Positions 47,574 to 56,672 of a DNA stretch of 64,000 bases are shown here, piece after piece. The notes beneath the pieces are model-generated. The model was not told where the DNA came from. It made no database searches and saw only the letters and a list, made by a program, of their open reading frames with translations. Source of the DNA: Chloracidobacterium validum (lineage in GTDB: Bacteria; Acidobacteriota; Blastocatellia; Chloracidobacteriales; Chloracidobacteriaceae); the NCBI RefSeq assembly GCF_018304825.1, contig NZ_CP072648.1, forward strand, positions 2,339,501 through 2,403,500. The letters are read 5' to 3'. A program made the translations under genes and the position numbers. Positions within the stretch are counted from its first letter, which is position 1. Each line of letters starts with the position of its first letter.

Positions 47574-48251
47574 CTACTCGACGCGCAAGCGTCCACGGGA
47601 CAGGAGGTTTCCCTGAGCGTCAAGCCGCGCTGGGAAAATGACAACCACATAGCCACTCCCCGGCTGGTCGCAGTCGTAGGCAAAACTGTAGTTTTGCTGA
47701 AAGTCCCCGGCATAGATGACCTCCTGCCCTGGAAAGACCAGGCGTTCTCCGCGTTCATCCAACGCCAGAAACAAGCCGCTTGGATTCAGGGAAAAATGCC
47801 TGGTCAGCGCATCAATGTGCCCGCGGCGCAGGCGGCCCTGGTAACGGTTAATGATGTCGGAAACGCGCTGATTCTCAAATGGATGGGGTGGCGGAACGGG
47901 CGTCTGTGGCGTTGGTGGCGCAGACGGGGCAGACGACAGTGCCAGCAGCGCCTGAGGTGGTGTCTCTGGCGGCGTCAGCAGTACCGAAAGCTGGCTTTTG
48001 AGGTAGTCCACTTCTTGTTGCAGCGCGGAAAGTTGGGCTTCTGATGTCACCCGGCCCTGGTCAGCCGGACGCCTGTTGTCCGCTTGGCGGTGCGTTGTCA
48101 GCTCCGTTATTTGTCTGTCCCACTGGAAAGCTTTTGTCTCCTGTTCCTCAACTTTCACTTGCAGGGGACGAAGGATGGCAAAATACAGAACTGCCAGGCC
48201 GATGAGGCTTAAGGTGGCAAGCATCACAGCGATTAGTGCCAGTAGCTCCAT
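47574..48251 (-). CDS. Membrane-anchored coiled-coil protein of cytoskeleton-like operon
   Basis: A 225-residue protein with one N-terminal membrane helix (residues 2-27). A coiled coil follows ('QVKVEEQETKAFQWDRQITE', then 'LSALQQEVDYLKSQLSVLL'), then a proline-rich linker and a C-terminal beta-rich domain ('LFLALDERGERLVFPGQEVI'). I chose the ATG at 48251 because GAGG lies eight bases upstream. It begins 28 bases after the actin-like gene and is the last gene of the operon. No family recognised; it could anchor the system to the membrane. Confidence 0.72.
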   Translation of the reverse strand: MELLALIAVMLATLSLIGLAVLYFAILRPLQVKVEEQETKAFQWDRQITELTTHRQADNRRPADQGRVTSEAQLSALQQEVDYLKSQLSVLLTPPETPPQALLALSSAPSAPPTPQTPVPPPHPFENQRVSDIINRYQGRLRRGHIDALTRHFSLNPSGLFLALDERGERLVFPGQEVIYAGDFQQNYSFAYDCDQPGSGYVVVIFPARLDAQGNLLSRGRLRVE

Positions 48252-48279
48252 TGGCATTTCCTCTACGCGCTCCATCTCA

Positions 48280-51200
48280 TTATTCGTATGTCATCGTTGA
48301 CCGGCGCGACTCCGGTGCATCCACGACCGGCGGCTGGTCGTCGTACAAGCCGGCCTTGCGCGCCATGTCCTCAATCAGCGGATAAGGCTGGTCAGGCAGA
48401 CTCGTGACCAGCTTGAGGTCGGCGTCGGCGTAGAGAACGCCTGTCAGAAAAACGGCCAATGGCGTCAATGCCGGGTAGTGCCGTCCACCGGTCAAGTACC
48501 CATTGATCGTCGCCCACTTCTTCTGTGGGATGAGATCCGTCGCGCCGCGTGACGTAAACAACGTGAGCAGTGTATCGAGCGGCTGCACCGTACCTGGCAG
48601 CCGGACGGTGACTTGCCGAATGTCGGTATCTGGCTCCATCGCAAAGCGGCGCTTGAGGTCGTTTTCACTCCAGCGGTCATACCACCGTATGGCTTCCGGA
48701 CCATGCTCCATCGCCCCATCGCTCACCACGACCTGGGGCAGATTGACCCCGGCAAAGGGGGCAGTGCGGCGTCCAGCGGCCGGGGATGCCGCCACAGCCA
48801 AGGCGCCAATCGGCACGTTGGTCTTGGCGCGGCTGATGTCACCCTCGTTGAGAAGCGTGACATCGTGAATATGCAGGTGCTCCAGGCAGTCCTTGGCTTC
48901 CGGTGCCAGGTTGTTTTCACTGGCGCGCGCCTTGAGACGGTTCAGCAGCGCCTCGGCTTCCGTCAGCAGCGCATTGCCCGACCGCTCAAAATCAGCAAAC
49001 AGCAACAAACCCCAGGCGTTGCCACCCAACACCAAATGGATGCCATGGGGTAACTGTGACTGATTGAGCTGGCGCTCGATGGCCGCGGCAGCCGCCTGGA
49101 CAATGCCATAGGCCAGCAGGTGGCGGAAGAAGAACTGCGCGCAAAAACGCTGGTAGGCATCCTTGTAGCTTTGGCTTTCCGGAAGCGTGGTGTCGCGGTA
49201 GCGTTTCAGAATGGCATGTTCACGTTGTATGAAAACATCGCCTTTGAGTTCGTTCACGCGCAACAGGTAAAACGTTGGCAGGCTGAGGTTTTGCTCCCGA
49301 ATGCCCGGCATGTCAGCGATGTCCAGGTCCGTTGGCGCGGCATCATCCGGGGCCAGCAACAAGCCCAGGTGACGGCGAAACACACTCGCCTTGCGGAGCT
49401 TGACGCGCGGCGACAGGTTTTGCTCGGCCGTACGGAAAAACTGCCGCCCCGCCAGCCGCAGGCTGTCGAGGACGAGCAGTTCCGTCCCACGCCGAACGGC
49501 AATATCGGCCGTGCCCCCGCCCACGTCAATAAACAGGTCAAGGCGCTCCGAACTCGGCGGCAGGTTTGCCCCGGCCGCAGCGGCGGCGCTTTCGTCCACC
49601 GTAGCCCGATAGTGCGCGGCCAGCTCAGCGTCTCGCCTGCCATGGCAAAGCTGCTGAATCACGCCAATGTTTTGTTGGTTCTGGGCATGAAACAAATCCC
49701 GGTCAGTTTTGTTCATGGCCAGTGGAAACGTGAAGGTGTAGTCGGTTACTCGCGCCCGGCGGTTGAAAAACAGCTCGGCGTGCGCAAACAGCAGCAGCAG
49801 CCGCAAGAACAATGCCCGATATGCCGAGGTGCGCGACTGATCCCATTTGAGGCTGTCGTGGAGGTCCCAGGCATTGGTGCCGCTCCCGGCCGCCAGCATG
49901 CGGTTGAGGCCATCGGAATAAAGGTTTGGAATGGCAGCCGCGAACAGATGCTCGACGGCCAGCGTCTCCGGCGTCACCTGGTTCAGACCAGCGGCGCGGC
50001 GGGTCAACAGGGTGGTTGAAAAATACCCTTTCGCCCCGCCCCAGTTGAACGGCGCGAAACCAAGGCGATTGGCGCCATCGCCGTTCCACAGGCGCAATGG
50101 GGAAAGTGAAAAACGCAGCGTATCCGTCACCCCGCCGGCCGCAAAGGCCACCGAGGTATTGCTCGTGCCAAAATCTACTGCGAGGTGAGCATCCACTGGA
50201 GTCCGCGCGCTTGCCTCTGGAAGCCTGGCCAGCAACACGACGCCGCGCTCCACATCGCGTTCCGGCGTGGGCCACCACCAGCTCAGCGCCCGTGGACGAT
50301 TGCCCGGCGCGTCTCCCGCAAGCGATGCGTGGGGCGTCAGCAGGGACACATATTCCTCTTGCGCGGTGCCGAGTTCATACAGGTCGCCCAGCCGTCCGGT
50401 TTCATCCACCAATCGCCAGCGCCCGGAGCGGTCCCGGATGCCCAGGCCATGCGCCGCATAGAAGCGCCACTGGGGGTCAACCTTGGGTGGCCACAGCGAC
50501 AAAGAAGCCACCGCCAAGTCGCGCGCCTCGAAATAGGTTGCCGTCCACGGCACATCGCGCCCACACAATTTGAGCGTCCACGTCACGCTGTGCCCGTCAT
50601 AACCGGCCTGGGCCTGCCAACCGGTGGTGTCTTCCGCCAGGAGTTCAGGGAAAAAGGACAGAAGCCGACTGGTGACAGGCGCGAGGCAAATCGCCACTTT
50701 CGTGGCGTCGGTCAACCCCTGCACCCTGTGGACCGGATGGATGAGCGCCAGACGTTGATCGTCGCGTGGGTAGTCCACCCGCCCGACGTAATCGCTTATG
50801 AACAATGCCGCCAGATCAACGACTTCATCGTTTGGGCCAAGCGCCAGGGTTTCAAGCCGGCCGCGGACTTCAACGCCAATGGCATTCGGGCCGAGCGCGC
50901 GGAAGCCCACTGGCGACGGTCGCCCTGGACCGAGCGCGGCCGTCATCCAGGGCGGCGGCGCGGGAAACTTGTCCACCAGAAAGTAGGTCTGTCCGCCGCG
51001 CGCGTTTGGTTTGCGGAGTGGATACGCTTCTAAAAGCTCCACCGGTTGGGGCAGTGGGCGAACCAGTGGCCAGCTCGCCGGTGCCGGGGACAGGCGCGGG
51101 GACTGGTCGAGTCCATAGGGGGCGGATCCAAAAGCAGTGTCGCACAGCGCGTCCAGCCGCTTCCCAAAACTCAAGGGCAAGACGTCACGCGCCAGGCAGC

Positions 51201-51744
51201 GCAGGTGACGGTGGCACTTTTCCTGTTCGAAGCGGTCTGTCAGGAGTTGGTCGCGGGTCTGCGACCAGGAAAGGCGCGAGCCATCGAGGTAGGGGCGCAG
51301 GTATGTGTCCTGCGGCCAACGCGAGCGCGCCCGCGCCGGGAAAAAGACCACATCTGGATAGACGCCGCCCAGGGTCGTCGTTCCAACGCTGAGGATTTGG
51401 ATGTCTTGAAACTGTCCCGCCTGCGGGTGCGTCGTTTCCAGCGCCGGAAGAAGCGCCGGCGGATACTCCCGCGCCAGCGTTGCCGGGGAAAGCGGCTCGG
51501 TCAGGTAAGCCGCTCCCATCGCATGCAGGACGAACAGGGTCAGCCACTCCTGGAGGGCGATTTCCTCACCCTGCTCGATGGCTTGGCGAAAACGATAGGC
51601 CGCCGCCCAAACCGTGGGCAGGGTTTCAAAAAAGCGTGGGTCGGGCGTTGGCGGTGTAACCCGATGGGGGTCCACCGGGAAAAATGTTCGGGGTCGAAAC
51701 CCACCGATTTCGCCCAGCATCCCCTGATTGATGAGCAGCGCCAT
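48280..51744 (-). CDS. Large actin/Hsp70-fold ATPase, 1154 residues
   Basis: Residues 521-533 ('LAVDFGTSNTSVAF') are a phosphate-1 loop, 737-750 ('LFIDVGGGTADIAV') phosphate-2 and 904-912 ('LVLGGNAWG') an adenosine motif. So the second half is an actin/Hsp70-type ATPase. The first 510 residues have no recognisable domain and resemble no Hsp70 part, and there is no Hsp70 substrate-binding domain. A strong AAGGAG lies eight bases before the ATG. The gene is sandwiched between a tubulin-like gene and a membrane coiled-coil gene, suggesting an ATP-driven partner of a filament or membrane machine. Confidence 0.85.
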   Translation of the reverse strand: MALLINQGMLGEIGGFRPRTFFPVDPHRVTPPTPDPRFFETLPTVWAAAYRFRQAIEQGEEIALQEWLTLFVLHAMGAAYLTEPLSPATLAREYPPALLPALETTHPQAGQFQDIQILSVGTTTLGGVYPDVVFFPARARSRWPQDTYLRPYLDGSRLSWSQTRDQLLTDRFEQEKCHRHLRCLARDVLPLSFGKRLDALCDTAFGSAPYGLDQSPRLSPAPASWPLVRPLPQPVELLEAYPLRKPNARGGQTYFLVDKFPAPPPWMTAALGPGRPSPVGFRALGPNAIGVEVRGRLETLALGPNDEVVDLAALFISDYVGRVDYPRDDQRLALIHPVHRVQGLTDATKVAICLAPVTSRLLSFFPELLAEDTTGWQAQAGYDGHSVTWTLKLCGRDVPWTATYFEARDLAVASLSLWPPKVDPQWRFYAAHGLGIRDRSGRWRLVDETGRLGDLYELGTAQEEYVSLLTPHASLAGDAPGNRPRALSWWWPTPERDVERGVVLLARLPEASARTPVDAHLAVDFGTSNTSVAFAAGGVTDTLRFSLSPLRLWNGDGANRLGFAPFNWGGAKGYFSTTLLTRRAAGLNQVTPETLAVEHLFAAAIPNLYSDGLNRMLAAGSGTNAWDLHDSLKWDQSRTSAYRALFLRLLLLFAHAELFFNRRARVTDYTFTFPLAMNKTDRDLFHAQNQQNIGVIQQLCHGRRDAELAAHYRATVDESAAAAAGANLPPSSERLDLFIDVGGGTADIAVRRGTELLVLDSLRLAGRQFFRTAEQNLSPRVKLRKASVFRRHLGLLLAPDDAAPTDLDIADMPGIREQNLSLPTFYLLRVNELKGDVFIQREHAILKRYRDTTLPESQSYKDAYQRFCAQFFFRHLLAYGIVQAAAAAIERQLNQSQLPHGIHLVLGGNAWGLLLFADFERSGNALLTEAEALLNRLKARASENNLAPEAKDCLEHLHIHDVTLLNEGDISRAKTNVPIGALAVAASPAAGRRTAPFAGVNLPQVVVSDGAMEHGPEAIRWYDRWSENDLKRRFAMEPDTDIRQVTVRLPGTVQPLDTLLTLFTSRGATDLIPQKKWATINGYLTGGRHYPALTPLAVFLTGVLYADADLKLVTSLPDQPYPLIEDMARKAGLYDDQPPVVDAPESRRSTMTYE

Positions 51745-51778
51745 GGGCGATCTCCTTGCAGTTGACGCTCAAACGCGA

Positions 51779-53479
51779 CTAAAGCGCGGTACTTGCCTTG
51801 TCAAAGACGTTTTGCCAGACCAGCCGGGCGTAGTCACCACGCTTGAACTCCGGCCGGGGAGTCCAGCCATAGAAATCAAACGAGGTGAGTTCAACGGCAA
51901 CCTGTCCGAAGCGTAGCGCTTCCTGCGGCTTGTTGTCGGCAGACAACCCCAGGAAGCGAGTGCGCCGCTTCATGCGCTCGATGACCCCGGTTTCCGCGCC
52001 GGGCGCGATCAACTTGTCAAGCCCGGCCCGAATTTCGGCGTCCCAGCCAAGGGTTCGGTCTGGCGAAGTCATATCCACCATGATGTCGCGGATGAGCGCG
52101 AGCATGGTGTCGTAGGCCAGGTGGTCCCGCTTCTGACGCCCTGGGTCGAGCTGGTAAAGCTGCCGTAACCCGCCCGGATCATCGCTCCAACCGCGTGCGT
52201 CTGAACGCCAGTCAATTTGGTATTTCAACAGGTGAATCATGACCGCCGTGGCCAGAAAGACCTTCTCGGCATCCACCGGCTGCCCAGCAACCGAATAGAT
52301 TGGCACATCGGAAAGGCGCAGCAGGTTTGGCGCCAGCGCCGCGTCACCGGCCGAGAGACCATAGGCGCTGCCATCTCCCACGCGGTTGCCACTGAAGTAG
52401 TTGAGCGCGGTCACGGCCGCCACGACTTCAGTGGCATTGAGTGGGTTGCGCTGCGTTTGCCCGCCATTGCTCCACCGCTGCAAGGCATCGGGCTGGGGCT
52501 TCCCGATGAGGTAGAGATCGTCAAAGGTCGGCGCGAGAATATCCCGGTAATAGACCAAACTATGCCGGGCGCGCAGCGGCAAGTCGGTTGGGTCGGCGTA
52601 AAAACCGGTCAGGATTTGTCGGGCCAGCGCAATTCGCTCCTCATCGTTGAGGACGGCAAAGGCCTCATGACCGGCGAACTGCTGCGCCATGCGGCGCGCT
52701 TCCTGCTCAACGTGGCGCGGGTCCATCTGCCGGTCTTCGGGCAACGGGCCGAAGGGCGGCGGCGGCGGCAGGAAGTAAGGCATCAGTAGGCAACCGCCGA
52801 TGGTCCAATTGAGGTTGCCACGCTGCCGTTCGCGGGCAAGAAATTGTCCGATGACCGGGAGCGCGCAGGCCCCTGTGCCGCCATAGACGCTCCCGCAGAT
52901 GAAAAAGCGAACCTGGCTTTGCTTGAGCGTGTTGAAGTCAATCTGGCTCCCGGCCGGCGTGTTGCGGTCGGTCAGCGACGCCGCGAACGCCGCCATGACC
53001 GGCGAACCAATAAATGGTTTCTGGTAAAAGCCCCGGTTGATTTTGACGTCGAGGTCTTTGTCCTCGTAGAAAGCCTGTAGCACGGGGGTGCCGTCCCGCT
53101 TGCCCGGCGACTGGGCCAACAGCTCGCGTAGCGTCGAGATGGGCCGGTCAAAGCCGGGCAGGGCCAGTGGGTCAAAGTCGCGTACTTGGGTGTTGACGGC
53201 CATCGCCCACGGACTGGCCGCCAGTGGTGTGATGCCCGGTTCGCCGTCTCCGTCCTGCATCAAGTGCTGAAGATGACGATAGCGGCGGAGCGTTTCGTGC
53301 AGGACATCGAGCGCGCCAGAACTCCGGTCGGGATCAATGCGCCAGATTTCGAGTTCGTCCCCGGCGCTGGAGAGCAGCCCCTGATGCATACCGGTCGGAA
53401 ATCCCATGGCCAACAACCGGACAAGGGCATCCGCCACCCGTGTTCCATTGCCGCCGGTCACGATGATGATGTTTTTCAT
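51779..53479 (-). CDS. Tubulin/FtsZ-superfamily-like protein (Tubulin_2 type)
   Basis: A 566-residue protein. The N-terminal 'KNIIIVTGGNGTRVADALVR' resembles the first glycine loop, and 'CGSVYGGTGACALPVIGQFL' at about 195-214 resembles the tubulin signature G-G-T-G-[SA]. A poly-Pro run at about 238-243 follows, then a long C-terminal region without clear similarity. It probably binds GTP; polymerisation is not shown. It is 35 bases upstream of the actin-like gene. I could not verify the family by search, so the assignment rests on the two loops and their spacing. Confidence 0.72.
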   Translation of the reverse strand: MKNIIIVTGGNGTRVADALVRLLAMGFPTGMHQGLLSSAGDELEIWRIDPDRSSGALDVLHETLRRYRHLQHLMQDGDGEPGITPLAASPWAMAVNTQVRDFDPLALPGFDRPISTLRELLAQSPGKRDGTPVLQAFYEDKDLDVKINRGFYQKPFIGSPVMAAFAASLTDRNTPAGSQIDFNTLKQSQVRFFICGSVYGGTGACALPVIGQFLARERQRGNLNWTIGGCLLMPYFLPPPPPFGPLPEDRQMDPRHVEQEARRMAQQFAGHEAFAVLNDEERIALARQILTGFYADPTDLPLRARHSLVYYRDILAPTFDDLYLIGKPQPDALQRWSNGGQTQRNPLNATEVVAAVTALNYFSGNRVGDGSAYGLSAGDAALAPNLLRLSDVPIYSVAGQPVDAEKVFLATAVMIHLLKYQIDWRSDARGWSDDPGGLRQLYQLDPGRQKRDHLAYDTMLALIRDIMVDMTSPDRTLGWDAEIRAGLDKLIAPGAETGVIERMKRRTRFLGLSADNKPQEALRFGQVAVELTSFDFYGWTPRPEFKRGDYARLVWQNVFDKASTAL

Positions 53480-53521
53480 TGAACCCGGTGCGCTCCTTTC
53501 AATCGGTTGCCAGAGACGGCT

Positions 53522-53983
53522 TCACCATCGCTTTGGATACAGGTCGCGCCGCCACGGACTCACGACATGAACGAGCAGCATGAAGAGCGCGTACCACAAA
53601 ATTCCAAACACCATGCCGACCATCAGCCCGTAGCCGCCGATGACCGCCGCATTGCGCAGAATGAATTTCCAGCCAATGAAACACAGCAGCACCAGCGGAA
53701 TAAAGCCCAGACAAATGAAGCCCACCGTTTCCCCAAGCGACCAGTTGCGGGCCTGCGGATTGGGCGCGCTTTGCTTGCGGAGAAACTTCACCCCCAACAT
53801 GCCGAGTGCGCACAAGACTCCCACGGCGACGAGGTAGAGAAACCACTTGTCGCCGACCGTCTGCCACTCGCTATCGCTGGTGTCGGTGACGAAATACTGG
53901 ATGAGTTCTTCCGGCAGCGCGAAAGCGAAGCGCTGCCCACCCAATCCAACTGAACGAACTGCCAACATCGCTGGTAAAACCAT
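53522..53983 (-). CDS. Three-helix membrane protein of cytoskeleton-like operon
   Basis: A 153-residue inner-membrane protein with helices at about 46-67 ('FLYLVAVGVLCALGMLGVKF'), 85-107 ('VGFICLGFIPLVLLCFIGW') and 112-138. The N-terminal 40 residues would be outside or in the cytoplasm. I chose the ATG at 53983 since the longer frame overlaps the vWA gene. It lies 29 bases after the vWA lipoprotein gene. Unknown family; probably the membrane platform of the system. Confidence 0.72.
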   Translation of the reverse strand: MVLPAMLAVRSVGLGGQRFAFALPEELIQYFVTDTSDSEWQTVGDKWFLYLVAVGVLCALGMLGVKFLRKQSAPNPQARNWSLGETVGFICLGFIPLVLLCFIGWKFILRNAAVIGGYGLMVGMVFGILWYALFMLLVHVVSPWRRDLYPKRW

Positions 53984-54012
53984 ACACTGCTCACGCCAAA
54001 CCGGCGCGGCCC

Positions 54013-55437
54013 CTATTTTGGGCCGATTGCCAAGTACAGGGTTGCTACCGTTTGCCGCCCGATCGGCGAACGCTCCCAAGGCCCTTGCCAAGTAGCCAGC
54101 AAGTTGTAGGTGCGATTAGCCTGTTCAAGCGTGCGGTCATCACGTGTATTCCACCGTTCAAGCCAGTCTGGCAAGCGTTTTTTGGGGGCGAGTCGCCCCG
54201 TCAGCCGAAAAATACGCCAGGCTGGAGACTTGGCCTGGCTTTCCCAACCTGGCTGTCCGGTGATCAGGATACTGCCATCCGCAGCCGTGACCTGTATATC
54301 GTCCAAACGCGGGTAGCCGTCTTCGGGGTTCTCGGTTGTTGGATACACCGGCGTTACCTGCCATTCCGTCATCTCGGCCAGTTGATCGGCAGGAGCCGCG
54401 CTCAACGCAGCTTCTGACCACGCCGGACGAACCATCACCGCCAGCCGTCGGTTGTTTTCCATGCCAATCTGAATGTTGAACGCGGGCGGCGCGTCCGGCT
54501 GCTTGTGCTTGACCTGGGCAATGCGCGGGCCAAGTCCGCTGGCGGATGGATCGCCTTTGACCTCAACCTGTGGTGGACCAGCAACAAAACAGGATGAAAG
54601 CGGCAGTTCGTGAATTTCGGGGCGACTCTCCAGTTTGCGCAGTTCACGGCGCAAACGGGCGACATTGTTATCGTGCTGACTGGCATCACTAGAGAAGACC
54701 ACTAGGTAAAACGGCCGCCACGTTTGCTGATCGTCTTCGGTTTTGTAGAGCGTGGCGTGCGTGCGTTCGACTTCAGAGTACACCTTACCGTCAAACTGGC
54801 TGCGGATACCAAACAGGGTCGCTTGCCAAGGTGGCTTGCCGTCTGCGCCGTCAAGCAGTTTGAGACTTTCATCCCGAAAGGCGGCCGCAAGCGTTGTCCC
54901 GGTGGATTGCACGCCATCGGTGACGAGCACATGCATGCGCGGCGGCGGGCCGGTGCGCTTACCTTCGAGGTTAGCGGCGAAGCTTCGCACGGCGGCGGCC
55001 AGATCGGTCTCCGGCAGGCTGTAAAACTCCTCTTTGTCCGGCAGCGGATTGAGCGCCTCCCAGGGTTTGGGGGCATCCACGCTCCCGCCGACTTTGCGGA
55101 ACTGAATTTTCATAGCCGGCTCGCACAGTGGCCCGACTTCCGTCAGCAACCGGAGGGTTTCCCGGTAAGCGCTGGCTCCACGCCGATTCAAATAGCCACG
55201 CATGCTGGCGCTGCCGTCCAGATACACAATCAGGTCATCAGTCGCCGGAGCAACAGCGGCAGGCTGGCAACGTGGCTGATCAAAGTCAGCGAGTTCTTTT
55301 TTCTCGACGAGTTCGCCCCACCGCGGGGGCGGCGTCGTGCAGCCACCCAGGGCGGACAGGAGACAGACCACGCCAAGGATCCACCAGCGGGAGCGGCTAG
55401 GTTGTGGCACAGGGTGACGTTTCCAGCCTTGGTTCAT
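54013..55437 (-). CDS. Lipoprotein with von Willebrand A-type domain
   Basis: A 474-residue protein with a lipoprotein signal (lipobox L-G-G-C, Cys at about residue 33). The vWA-like domain has the metal-ion site D-x-S-x-S in 'VYLDGSASMRGY' (about 74-78), a Thr in 'LPETDLAAAVRS' and an Asp in 'VLVTDGVQST'. The C-terminal part is beta-rich. vWA proteins assemble complexes through a bound metal. As the first gene of a tubulin/actin-like operon it may be the envelope sensor or docking subunit. The ATG at 55437 is the one that gives a signal peptide. Confidence 0.82.
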   Translation of the reverse strand: MNQGWKRHPVPQPSRSRWWILGVVCLLSALGGCTTPPPRWGELVEKKELADFDQPRCQPAAVAPATDDLIVYLDGSASMRGYLNRRGASAYRETLRLLTEVGPLCEPAMKIQFRKVGGSVDAPKPWEALNPLPDKEEFYSLPETDLAAAVRSFAANLEGKRTGPPPRMHVLVTDGVQSTGTTLAAAFRDESLKLLDGADGKPPWQATLFGIRSQFDGKVYSEVERTHATLYKTEDDQQTWRPFYLVVFSSDASQHDNNVARLRRELRKLESRPEIHELPLSSCFVAGPPQVEVKGDPSASGLGPRIAQVKHKQPDAPPAFNIQIGMENNRRLAVMVRPAWSEAALSAAPADQLAEMTEWQVTPVYPTTENPEDGYPRLDDIQVTAADGSILITGQPGWESQAKSPAWRIFRLTGRLAPKKRLPDWLERWNTRDDRTLEQANRTYNLLATWQGPWERSPIGRQTVATLYLAIGPK

Positions 55438-55568: not shown

Positions 55569-56666
55569 TCACAGGTCGGTTTGGTGAACTTGGCGGAGCG
55601 CCGCTCGGTGTCCGTCCCAACCCAATCGCGCTAAGGCGGCCTCACAGGGCAGCCACGCGCATGCGTCGTGTTCGGTCGCTTGTAACCGAACCGCAACATC
55701 GTCCGCAATCCGCGCCACAAATGCATGCTCTCGATTGAAGACTGGTCCCTGTGCCGCCGGGGGATACCATTCGGTTGTCATCAGCGAGGTTCGCACAAGC
55801 CCAAGCTCGCGCGGCAGGATGTCATAACCTGTTTCTTCGTAGGCCTCACGGCGGGCCGCCTGCGCCGGGGATTCACCCGGCTCAACCCGACCGGTTATGG
55901 GCTGCCAGAAACCGCCCCGCGCCGCCGTCCGGCGCAGCACAAGGTATTCCACCTGCCCCGCCCGCTCACGTACCAGCCAGACCTGCACGGAAGCCTGGGT
56001 AACTTGACGTTCAACCACGTCCCGCTCAAAGACCTGTCCCAGGTGGTGACTGACGCGCGCGCCAACCTCGTCAAGCGAGGGCGACGCCCCGGTTTCGTGG
56101 GCAAGGGATGTCACGGCCTTGTCGGCAATACCACACGGAACGATGAAGTTGAAGTCATCGAGGCGCGTTGTCACGTTGAGCGCAAACCCATGCGAAGTAA
56201 TCCAGCGCGACACACGGACGCCGAGCGCGGCAATCTTGCGCTCACCGGCCACCCAAACGCCGGTCAGACCCGACACGCGCCCGGCACTAATCCCATACTC
56301 GGCCAGGGCGCGAATCAGTGCTTCCTCTAGGTCACGCATGTAGCGCCGGATGTCACGCCGGTCTGGATTGAGGTCGAGAATCGGATAGCCGACCAGTTGA
56401 CCCCAGCCATGATAGGTCACATCGCCGCCGCGTCCGGTTTCATAAACGGCCATGCCCTGGCTTTCGAGCACGGCCGCGGGCGCAACGACGTGCTGCGCTT
56501 TGGCGGCCCGCCCCAGGGTAATCACCGGTGGGTGCTCAAGCAGTAGTAGCGTGTCGGGAATCACACCCTGGCGACGCTGCGCGACGAGTTGCTCCTGCAT
56601 CGTCAGCCCAGCGGCGTAGTCCACCACGCCCAGCGACCAGACTTCCAACCAGCGCGGCGCTGACAT
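55569..56666 (-). CDS. lipB: Octanoyltransferase LipB fused to a Nudix hydrolase
   Basis: A 365-residue protein in two parts. Residues 1-215 are LipB, which moves octanoate from acyl carrier protein to lipoyl domains, with 'TGRGGDVTYHGWGQLVGYPI', catalytic Lys144 ('ERKIAALGVR') and Cys178 ('VPCGIADKAVTSL'). Residues about 225-365 are a Nudix domain whose box (259-281) keeps G-x5-E-x7-R-E-x-x-E-E-x-G. Both active sites look intact. The Nudix substrate is unknown. It lies a few bases after nhaA and before the vWA gene. Confidence 0.93.
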   Translation of the reverse strand: MSAPRWLEVWSLGVVDYAAGLTMQEQLVAQRRQGVIPDTLLLLEHPPVITLGRAAKAQHVVAPAAVLESQGMAVYETGRGGDVTYHGWGQLVGYPILDLNPDRRDIRRYMRDLEEALIRALAEYGISAGRVSGLTGVWVAGERKIAALGVRVSRWITSHGFALNVTTRLDDFNFIVPCGIADKAVTSLAHETGASPSLDEVGARVSHHLGQVFERDVVERQVTQASVQVWLVRERAGQVEYLVLRRTAARGGFWQPITGRVEPGESPAQAARREAYEETGYDILPRELGLVRTSLMTTEWYPPAAQGPVFNREHAFVARIADDVAVRLQATEHDACAWLPCEAALARLGWDGHRAALRQVHQTDL

Positions 56667-56672
56667 CACAGC

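Follow-up and report, generated by a model that had tools for sequence, protein, structure and literature searches.

In bacterial cell division an actin-fold ATPase, FtsA, stands beside a tubulin-fold GTPase, FtsZ, at the membrane, and apart from FtsA/FtsZ no bacterial system is known to us that constantly pairs a protein of tubulin fold with one of actin fold. Among the closest described systems, the divergent FtsZl1 family (Tubulin_2) has been linked to von Willebrand factor A (vWA) proteins, with membrane remodelling as the proposed role (Makarova and Koonin 2010, PMC2875224). This link is restated in PMC5898192, and Tubulin_2 proteins are set apart from FtsZ and tubulin in PMC9871819. A second line of work, on conflict systems dependent on nucleoside triphosphates (NTP) (Kaur et al. 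2020, PMC7159879), mentions in its overview that GTPases are combined with an HSP70 protein and homologs of tubulin and, in its detailed section, gives the tubulin and HSP70 themes as non-overlapping; its DO-GTPase systems are described as nearly absent from cyanobacteria. Here we describe a five-gene operon from a 64,000-nucleotide stretch (the window) of Chloracidobacterium validum (Acidobacteriota; genome of 3.66 Mb in two contigs), which encodes a tubulin-like protein, an actin-fold protein, a putative vWA lipoprotein and two membrane proteins. As far as literature searches show, this set seems to be unstudied.

The five open reading frames are packed tightly at 55437-47574, all on the minus strand, in the order vWA lipoprotein, protein with three transmembrane (TM) segments, tubulin-like protein, actin-like protein and TM/coiled-coil protein, with intergenic gaps of 29, 42, 34 and 4 bases (Table 1; the start of the three-TM gene is a chosen one, as the longest frame of P0004 overlaps the vWA gene). 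An initial annotation, made from the letters alone, had placed them so, and the FtsZ/tubulin-like loops and the vWA metal site behind a lipobox that it reported are present in the proteins concerned. The Hsp70/actin loops that it named are present as actin-type motifs, whereas the label Hsp70 is loose, the nearest solved chains by profile being MreB first. In aligned parts of all five genes the ratio of non-synonymous to synonymous substitution rates (dN/dS) against a congener is 0.11-0.17 (dS 0.8-1.6, near saturation), so the genes appear to be under purifying selection. Promoter- and terminator-like sites at the locus show no excess over a shuffled background. The host genome has, besides the cluster, its own FtsZ and a separate MreB-like match.

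Table 1. The five genes of the operon, in the order of the minus strand (window positions; residue positions in the last column).
Feature	Coordinates	Strand	Characteristics
vWA lipoprotein, 474 aa (part of P0005)	54013..55437	-	lipobox LSALGGC; MIDAS-type DGSAS (metal ion-dependent adhesion site); conserved C-terminal region
Small integral membrane protein (part of P0004)	53522..53983	-	three hydrophobic segments
FtsZ/tubulin-like protein P0003, 566 aa	51779..53479	-	T1 GGNGT at 9; T4 CGSVYGGTGA at 195
Actin/MreB/Hsp70-type ATPase P0002, 1154 aa	48280..51744	-	core from ~521; VDFGTSNT at 523, DVGGGTAD at 740, GGNAW at 907
Membrane-anchored protein P0001, 233 aa	47574..48275	-	N-terminal TM, coiled coil, Pro-rich linker, C-terminal domain (by eye)

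Judged from sequence, the tubulin-like and actin-fold genes are constant neighbours, in places joined into one predicted polypeptide, and are encoded together with a vWA protein predicted to be exported and with membrane proteins. The order vWA-TM-tubulin-actin recurs at 28-41% identity in three distant Acidobacteriota loci (L016, L017, L018; L and G numbers are our labels for loci and genomes). At no more than 38% identity it is found in L033, L034, L036 and L037, on Picosynechococcus plasmids (L042, L043, L044) and in Prevotella (L041, where the order was read from open frames, the record being without annotation). In L035 the same order holds with a 1710-aa gene inserted, and a Gloeothece plasmid carries the set, again at no more than 38% identity, with the vWA gene on the opposite strand; this Gloeothece tubulin match led on to the broader family among named records. 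A second subfamily (L091-L093) combines tubulin-like proteins of ~754-817 aa and actin-like proteins of 756-833 aa with an upstream vWA gene, which in L091 appears as two frames. Conservation of the set in distant loci thus extends to four of the five genes by BLAST, and to the fifth by place and by eye. The inserted product of L035 (10416-15548, minus strand), between the TM and tubulin genes, is of no recognised kind.

Across 396 Acidobacteriota genomes the tubulin profile, A3, matched 15 at E <= 1e-5. The actin profile, A4, matched 15 at E <= 1e-15, a threshold set after seeing the gap from 4.5e-18 to 9.8e-12, and 294 at 1e-8, the weaker matches listed covering ~100 residues or fewer and lying mostly in frames of MreB length. 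Fourteen genomes are common to the A3 and strong A4 sets, and in these both matches lie on one contig, at most ~2.3 kb apart and adjoining. For the eleven full-length loci the pairing is in part circular, since the rows of A4 came from genes next to tubulin hits: nine of these loci contributed to A3 and A4, and the remaining two (G114 and G157) are congeners. Neither profile contains the loci in G028, G274 and G349 or a fusion in G257. The unpaired tubulin genome, G173, has two matches (2.1e-7 and 9.8e-6) in short frames and no strong actin match.

The fifteenth actin genome, G257 (L094), encodes a single 1478-aa protein bearing both motif sets: loops of tubulin type at residues 23 and 167, and actin motifs at residues 984 and 1189. 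After it come vWA, ZorA-like and ZorB-like genes. The tubulin part of the fusion matches Tubulin_2 only at E 0.055, and it is counted as a member for its two loops. A single open frame of 1689 codons likewise spans tubulin and actin in L017, in a draft genome 65% complete and with an alternative internal start at a GTG after a purine-rich stretch.

The operon also seems, from its gene trees, to move as a unit. Over 17 loci, patristic distances in the tubulin and actin trees correlate at r 0.98, with a rank correlation of 0.89. Agreement is lower for the vWA tree (16 loci), at r 0.88 with tubulin and 0.83 with actin. All three trees put the acidobacterial L037 with the Bacteroidota copy L041. 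Copies from cyanobacteria branch among those of Acidobacteriota, in the tubulin tree near L035 and L036. Because the tubulin and actin trees agree and cross phyla, the set appears to travel together. A chance neighbourhood was rejected, tubulin-actin co-occurrence being far beyond chance and the trees in agreement, as was a function tied to phototrophy, the set being found in Prevotella as well. Among viral contigs no tubulin relative was found by profiles A1 or A3, a phage search with the Gloeothece actin protein gave no match (tubulin was not searched there), and a plasmid search with P0002 gave none. In three IMG/VR contigs (L038-L040) the actin profile matches short stretches, 54-65 residues long.

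Within the genus, the vWA and tubulin genes are present in all seven Chloracidobacterium genomes, and in four of the seven (L133-L136, L010-L013) the vWA and TM genes are separated from the tubulin gene. Both halves of the split cluster retain their window flanks in G397: a lipB-type gene, nhaA and nuoN, as we take them to be, for one half, and presumably DUF1343-type, RlpA-type and trxB genes for the other. A split at this point, after which neither half has been lost, speaks for two transcription units serving one function.

P0003 is likely, though not proven, to be a member of the FtsZ/tubulin superfamily. Tubulin_2 matches all ten members of A3, an alignment of diverse relatives, at E <= 1 (best 2.2e-11). 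When six relatives were taken singly, L032 (40.8 bits) and L035 (44.0 bits) passed the Pfam cut-off, L037, L041 and L042 fell below it and the L091 protein gave no match at E 0.05; in a separate scan the L092 protein gave none at E 1. Comparison of the family profile with four canonical Tubulin_2 proteins gave E 3.8e-6 (87%) over 54 columns round the T4 loop, and two control comparisons gave E 0.22 and 0.15 (0.3-0.4%). A T1-type GG.G is present in 17 of 17 loci; the T4 loop was found by pattern in 13, and GGTGA is visible by eye in three of the four missed (L035, L037, L041). The NCBIfam scan of P0003 gave no tubulin match, and a search of the PDB with the single sequence retrieved no FtsZ. 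With the P0003 model (mean pLDDT, the predicted local distance difference test, 39.9), the 50 Foldseek matches listed are all tubulin, microtubule or ciliary/flagellar-doublet entries, the best of these at E 0.0049, none below 0.001 and with a TM-score of ~0.2. VIA-align, run as a re-examination of Foldseek's own list on the same low-confidence model, gave 49 of 50 listed titles as FtsZ, tubulin, CetZ, microtubules or the like, the best with Z 10.1 over 180 residues at a root mean square deviation of 4.8. A low-confidence model thus still retrieves FtsZ/tubulin entries in its top rows.

The actin-fold assignment of P0002 draws on an MreB_Mbl match above the Pfam cut-off (5.6e-7, 29.1 versus 27 bits), a model that also matches nine of ten relatives at E <= 1; the L041 protein has no Pfam match at E 0.05. 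Against solved structures the family profile finds MreB (1.8e-10), then mitochondrial Hsp70 (1.2e-4) and FtsA (2.4e-4). By pattern, the phosphate 1 motif is found in 16 of 17 loci, phosphate 2 in 17 and the adenosine motif in 12. Proteins of the main group are 1042-1173 aa long; the ~520 N-terminal residues of P0002 have no significant Pfam match, nor did the Pfam scan of P0002 return HSP70 or SrfB (PF07520). The last model matches the L092 actin-like protein weakly (0.084) and more strongly (1.6e-6) a second large protein in L036 (15368-18247, plus strand; 959 aa, HSP70 1e-7), which follows the tubulin-actin pair.

The vWA protein is predicted from its lipobox to be exported and lipid-anchored. 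Its vWA label rests on the motif and a weak profile match. The Pfam scan of the window protein gave no VWA match, Pfam VWA models reach one of 11 relatives (E 0.23-0.24), and the family profile weakly matches the solved chains of Plasmodium sporozoite surface protein 2 (0.0076) and integrin alpha-X (0.48). The metal-site motif DxSxS is found in 12 of 16 loci with a vWA gene, with DxTxS in L035 and ExSxS in L037 and L041 (in L042 the gene is truncated as annotated, and the motif was not scored). The family is alignable along the full length of the protein, and identity between the window protein and those of L016, L017 and L018 is 28-30%. For the small membrane protein, 15 members scanned have 2-4 hydrophobic segments; BLAST links the gene in L014-L018 and L133-L136, at E 3e-14 or better in L016-L018. 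P0001 is matched by BLAST in congeners only (five loci), and a protein whose ending, by eye, is similar follows the actin gene in distant loci. Elsewhere, TM and coiled-coil genes were assigned from their position, length and hydrophobic character.

How does this set compare with those already described? Like the FtsZl1 systems of PMC2875224, it combines a divergent, probable FtsZ/tubulin domain with a putative vWA protein bearing a MIDAS-type motif and with OmpA-family and membrane partners, and a relationship between the two is supported. However, the accessible FtsZl1 text names no actin/Hsp70 partner: 'actin' occurs there only in general remarks and references, and a word search of that text gave no Hsp70, MreB or DnaK. 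Most FtsZl1 members are described there with a coiled coil and a C-terminal domain that is helical, and kinases and P-loop GTPases are among their neighbours; the actin-like protein may be one of the supplement's families A1-A2 and B1-B9. The DO-GTPase/GAP1 systems of PMC7159879 likewise bring tubulin, HSP70, vWA and membrane components together in mobile neighbourhoods. They are built, though, round a P-loop DO-GTPase, and in none of the five window proteins did Pfam detect a GTPase of P-loop type; furthermore, the present set has tubulin and actin as a constant pair and occurs on cyanobacterial plasmids. A motif scan for DO-GTPases over 17 related loci found seven Walker A-like frames, none followed by an NKxD-like motif, the scan favouring long frames such that real genes in GC-rich loci can be missed. 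From FtsA-FtsZ the set differs in sequences that are far apart, in its vWA and TM partners and in the size of its actin-like protein, whose N-terminal half is without Pfam assignment. ZorA/ZorB-like genes in three related operons (L035, L037, L094) recall Zorya, whereas PADLOC finds no ZorA or ZorB among the five window proteins (ZorC, ZorD and ZorE were not sought separately). In the texts compared, neither the tubulin-actin pairing nor the fusions nor Zorya-like stators were found, and literature searches for the pairing, at title and abstract level and without subscription journals or supplements, turned up no paper that shows it. The initial annotation's claim of a new machine holds in part: the vWA/FtsZl1 link and tubulin or HSP70 parts of conflict systems had been published in 2010 and 2020, and what seems new relative to FtsZl1/vWA and NTP-dependent conflict-type systems is the constant tubulin-actin pair.

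We tentatively favour, at a little short of an even chance, an accessory, horizontally moving and envelope-tethered GTP/ATP pair of FtsA/FtsZ type, governed by the exported vWA protein and with a probable stress or defence output. In its favour count the conserved gene order, the coincidence of tubulin and actin in 14 genomes, the two fused frames, the concordant trees, the retention of vWA and tubulin genes throughout the genus, the ZorA/ZorB-like genes of three operons, the host's separate FtsZ and MreB-like match, and purifying selection. The sequences show gene content, pairing, fused frames, selection and co-inheritance; that the proteins use nucleotides, assemble, sense a signal, are tethered to the membrane and act in defence or stress we infer. 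Beyond the inner membrane, the vWA domain would sense or grip a ligand or a perturbed envelope, and the multi-TM and TM/coiled-coil proteins would relay its state across the membrane and hold the complex there. The actin-fold ATPase would then act as FtsA does for FtsZ, tethering the tubulin-like GTPase and timing its assembly into a membrane-bound polymer or ring, to which some lineages may add an ion-driven stator of ZorA/ZorB type. As for its output, of which we are less confident, the machine could answer an attack on the envelope (phage entry, for example) or stress within it by remodelling the membrane locally or by recruiting effectors. A bolder version, in which tubulin GTPase and actin ATPase would be obligate partners in a mobile, transenvelope, dual-filament immune or stress apparatus with a vWA sensor and, in some lineages, a Zorya-like stator, drawing on GTP, ATP and ion flow, we regard as doubtful. 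If the pair does co-assemble, this would be a second case of tubulin-actin cooperation, in which natural fusions make contact directly testable, and part of the 2010 FtsZl1/vWA systems would gain a partner and a testable mechanism.

Several observations weigh against the envelope-tethered pair. With regard to the tubulin-like protein, Tubulin_2 (PF13809) matches P0003 at E 0.003 and 17.3 bits, under the cut-off of 27, and a PF13809 search of its own genome at E 0.001 gave no match. A profile comparison of the same type with FtsZ gave only E 0.033 (1.5%), FtsZ/CetZ solved chains are matched by the family profile at E 1.4 or worse (the best being a CetZ chain at 1.4), and no counterpart of the T7 catalytic loop was seen by eye in alignment A3. 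Mean pLDDT is 39.9 for the AlphaFold model of P0003 and 31.2 for the fold model of P0002, both built on 4-row alignments with relatives 77-87% identical. The stator evidence, which itself favours the pair, is limited: the ZorB-like proteins in the operons of L094, L037 and L035 score E 2.7e-9, 2.5e-13 and 9.1e-17 by PADLOC, but the ZorA-like scores of 6.9e-7, 2.4e-4 and 3.8e-5 are weak and shared with other coiled-coil families, and both sets come from a scan of chosen genes of four relatives (MotA/MotB-like frames, one L036 gene and the L094 fusion). PADLOC gave no match for any of the five window proteins. Finally, the set occurs in all seven genomes of the genus, a pattern that fits a resident function better than a defence system acquired recently.

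An explanation that overlaps the envelope-tethered pair, and that we consider possible though clearly short of probable, is that the set belongs to the NTP-dependent conflict class and acts against phages or by abortive infection, with a tubulin and actin signalling polymer that would trigger an effector. The three operons with ZorA/ZorB-like members suggest a connection with envelope-sensing defence against phages, and mobility of the set fits such a role. CHAT lies near L016 and L033, a caspase near L033 and McrBC near L041, neighbours that were picked by eye and have no background rate, which counts against both readings. Further genes of this kind are an nSTAND2 NTPase-protein kinase fusion (L010, 4800-6806, minus strand), ~2 kb upstream of the tubulin gene of a congener, and the downstream protein of L018 (2109-4562, minus strand), a right-handed beta helix with an FGE-sulfatase domain (3.4e-46). 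The FGE-sulfatase domain is reported from conflict systems in PMC7159879, and both genes, like the CHAT, caspase and McrBC neighbours, favour this explanation. The window operon itself, however, contains no recognised effector and is blank in PADLOC, and no DO-GTPase candidate was found.

A membrane-remodelling or vesicle-forming system of FtsZl1 type, without any role in defence, as proposed in 2010, seems to us somewhat unlikely. It has in its favour the Tubulin_2 family link, partners of the same kinds (vWA and OmpA-type) and a presence throughout Chloracidobacterium, as a resident function would have. It sits poorly, however, with a distribution that is patchy elsewhere (15 of 396 genomes), with copies on cyanobacterial plasmids and with trees that cross phyla.

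More improbable is a chaperone-type function, in which an Hsp70-like foldase would assemble the vWA or tubulin-like proteins and these would not polymerise. Hsp70s do follow MreB in the profile matches, and L036 has a second, HSP70-matching protein, but MreB is the strongest match and P0002 has no HSP70 match in Pfam. Partition of DNA or plasmids by a TubZ- or ParM-like filament is very improbable indeed since, although tubulin and actin folds both serve plasmid partition (PMC9178275) and the cyanobacterial copies are on plasmids, the window copy lies among genes of chromosomal type and its partners are membrane or exported proteins; no search was aimed at a centromere-binding gene.

Two further genes lie close to members of the family. 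A protein with an ARPP-1 domain (2.2e-102) is encoded at L034:1082-2065 on the plus strand, a few kb from the operon. In the window, a 366-aa frame at 55569-56669 on the minus strand adjoins NhaA-type and NuoN-type frames; from its motifs we take it to be a lipoyl transferase LipB fused to a NUDIX domain.

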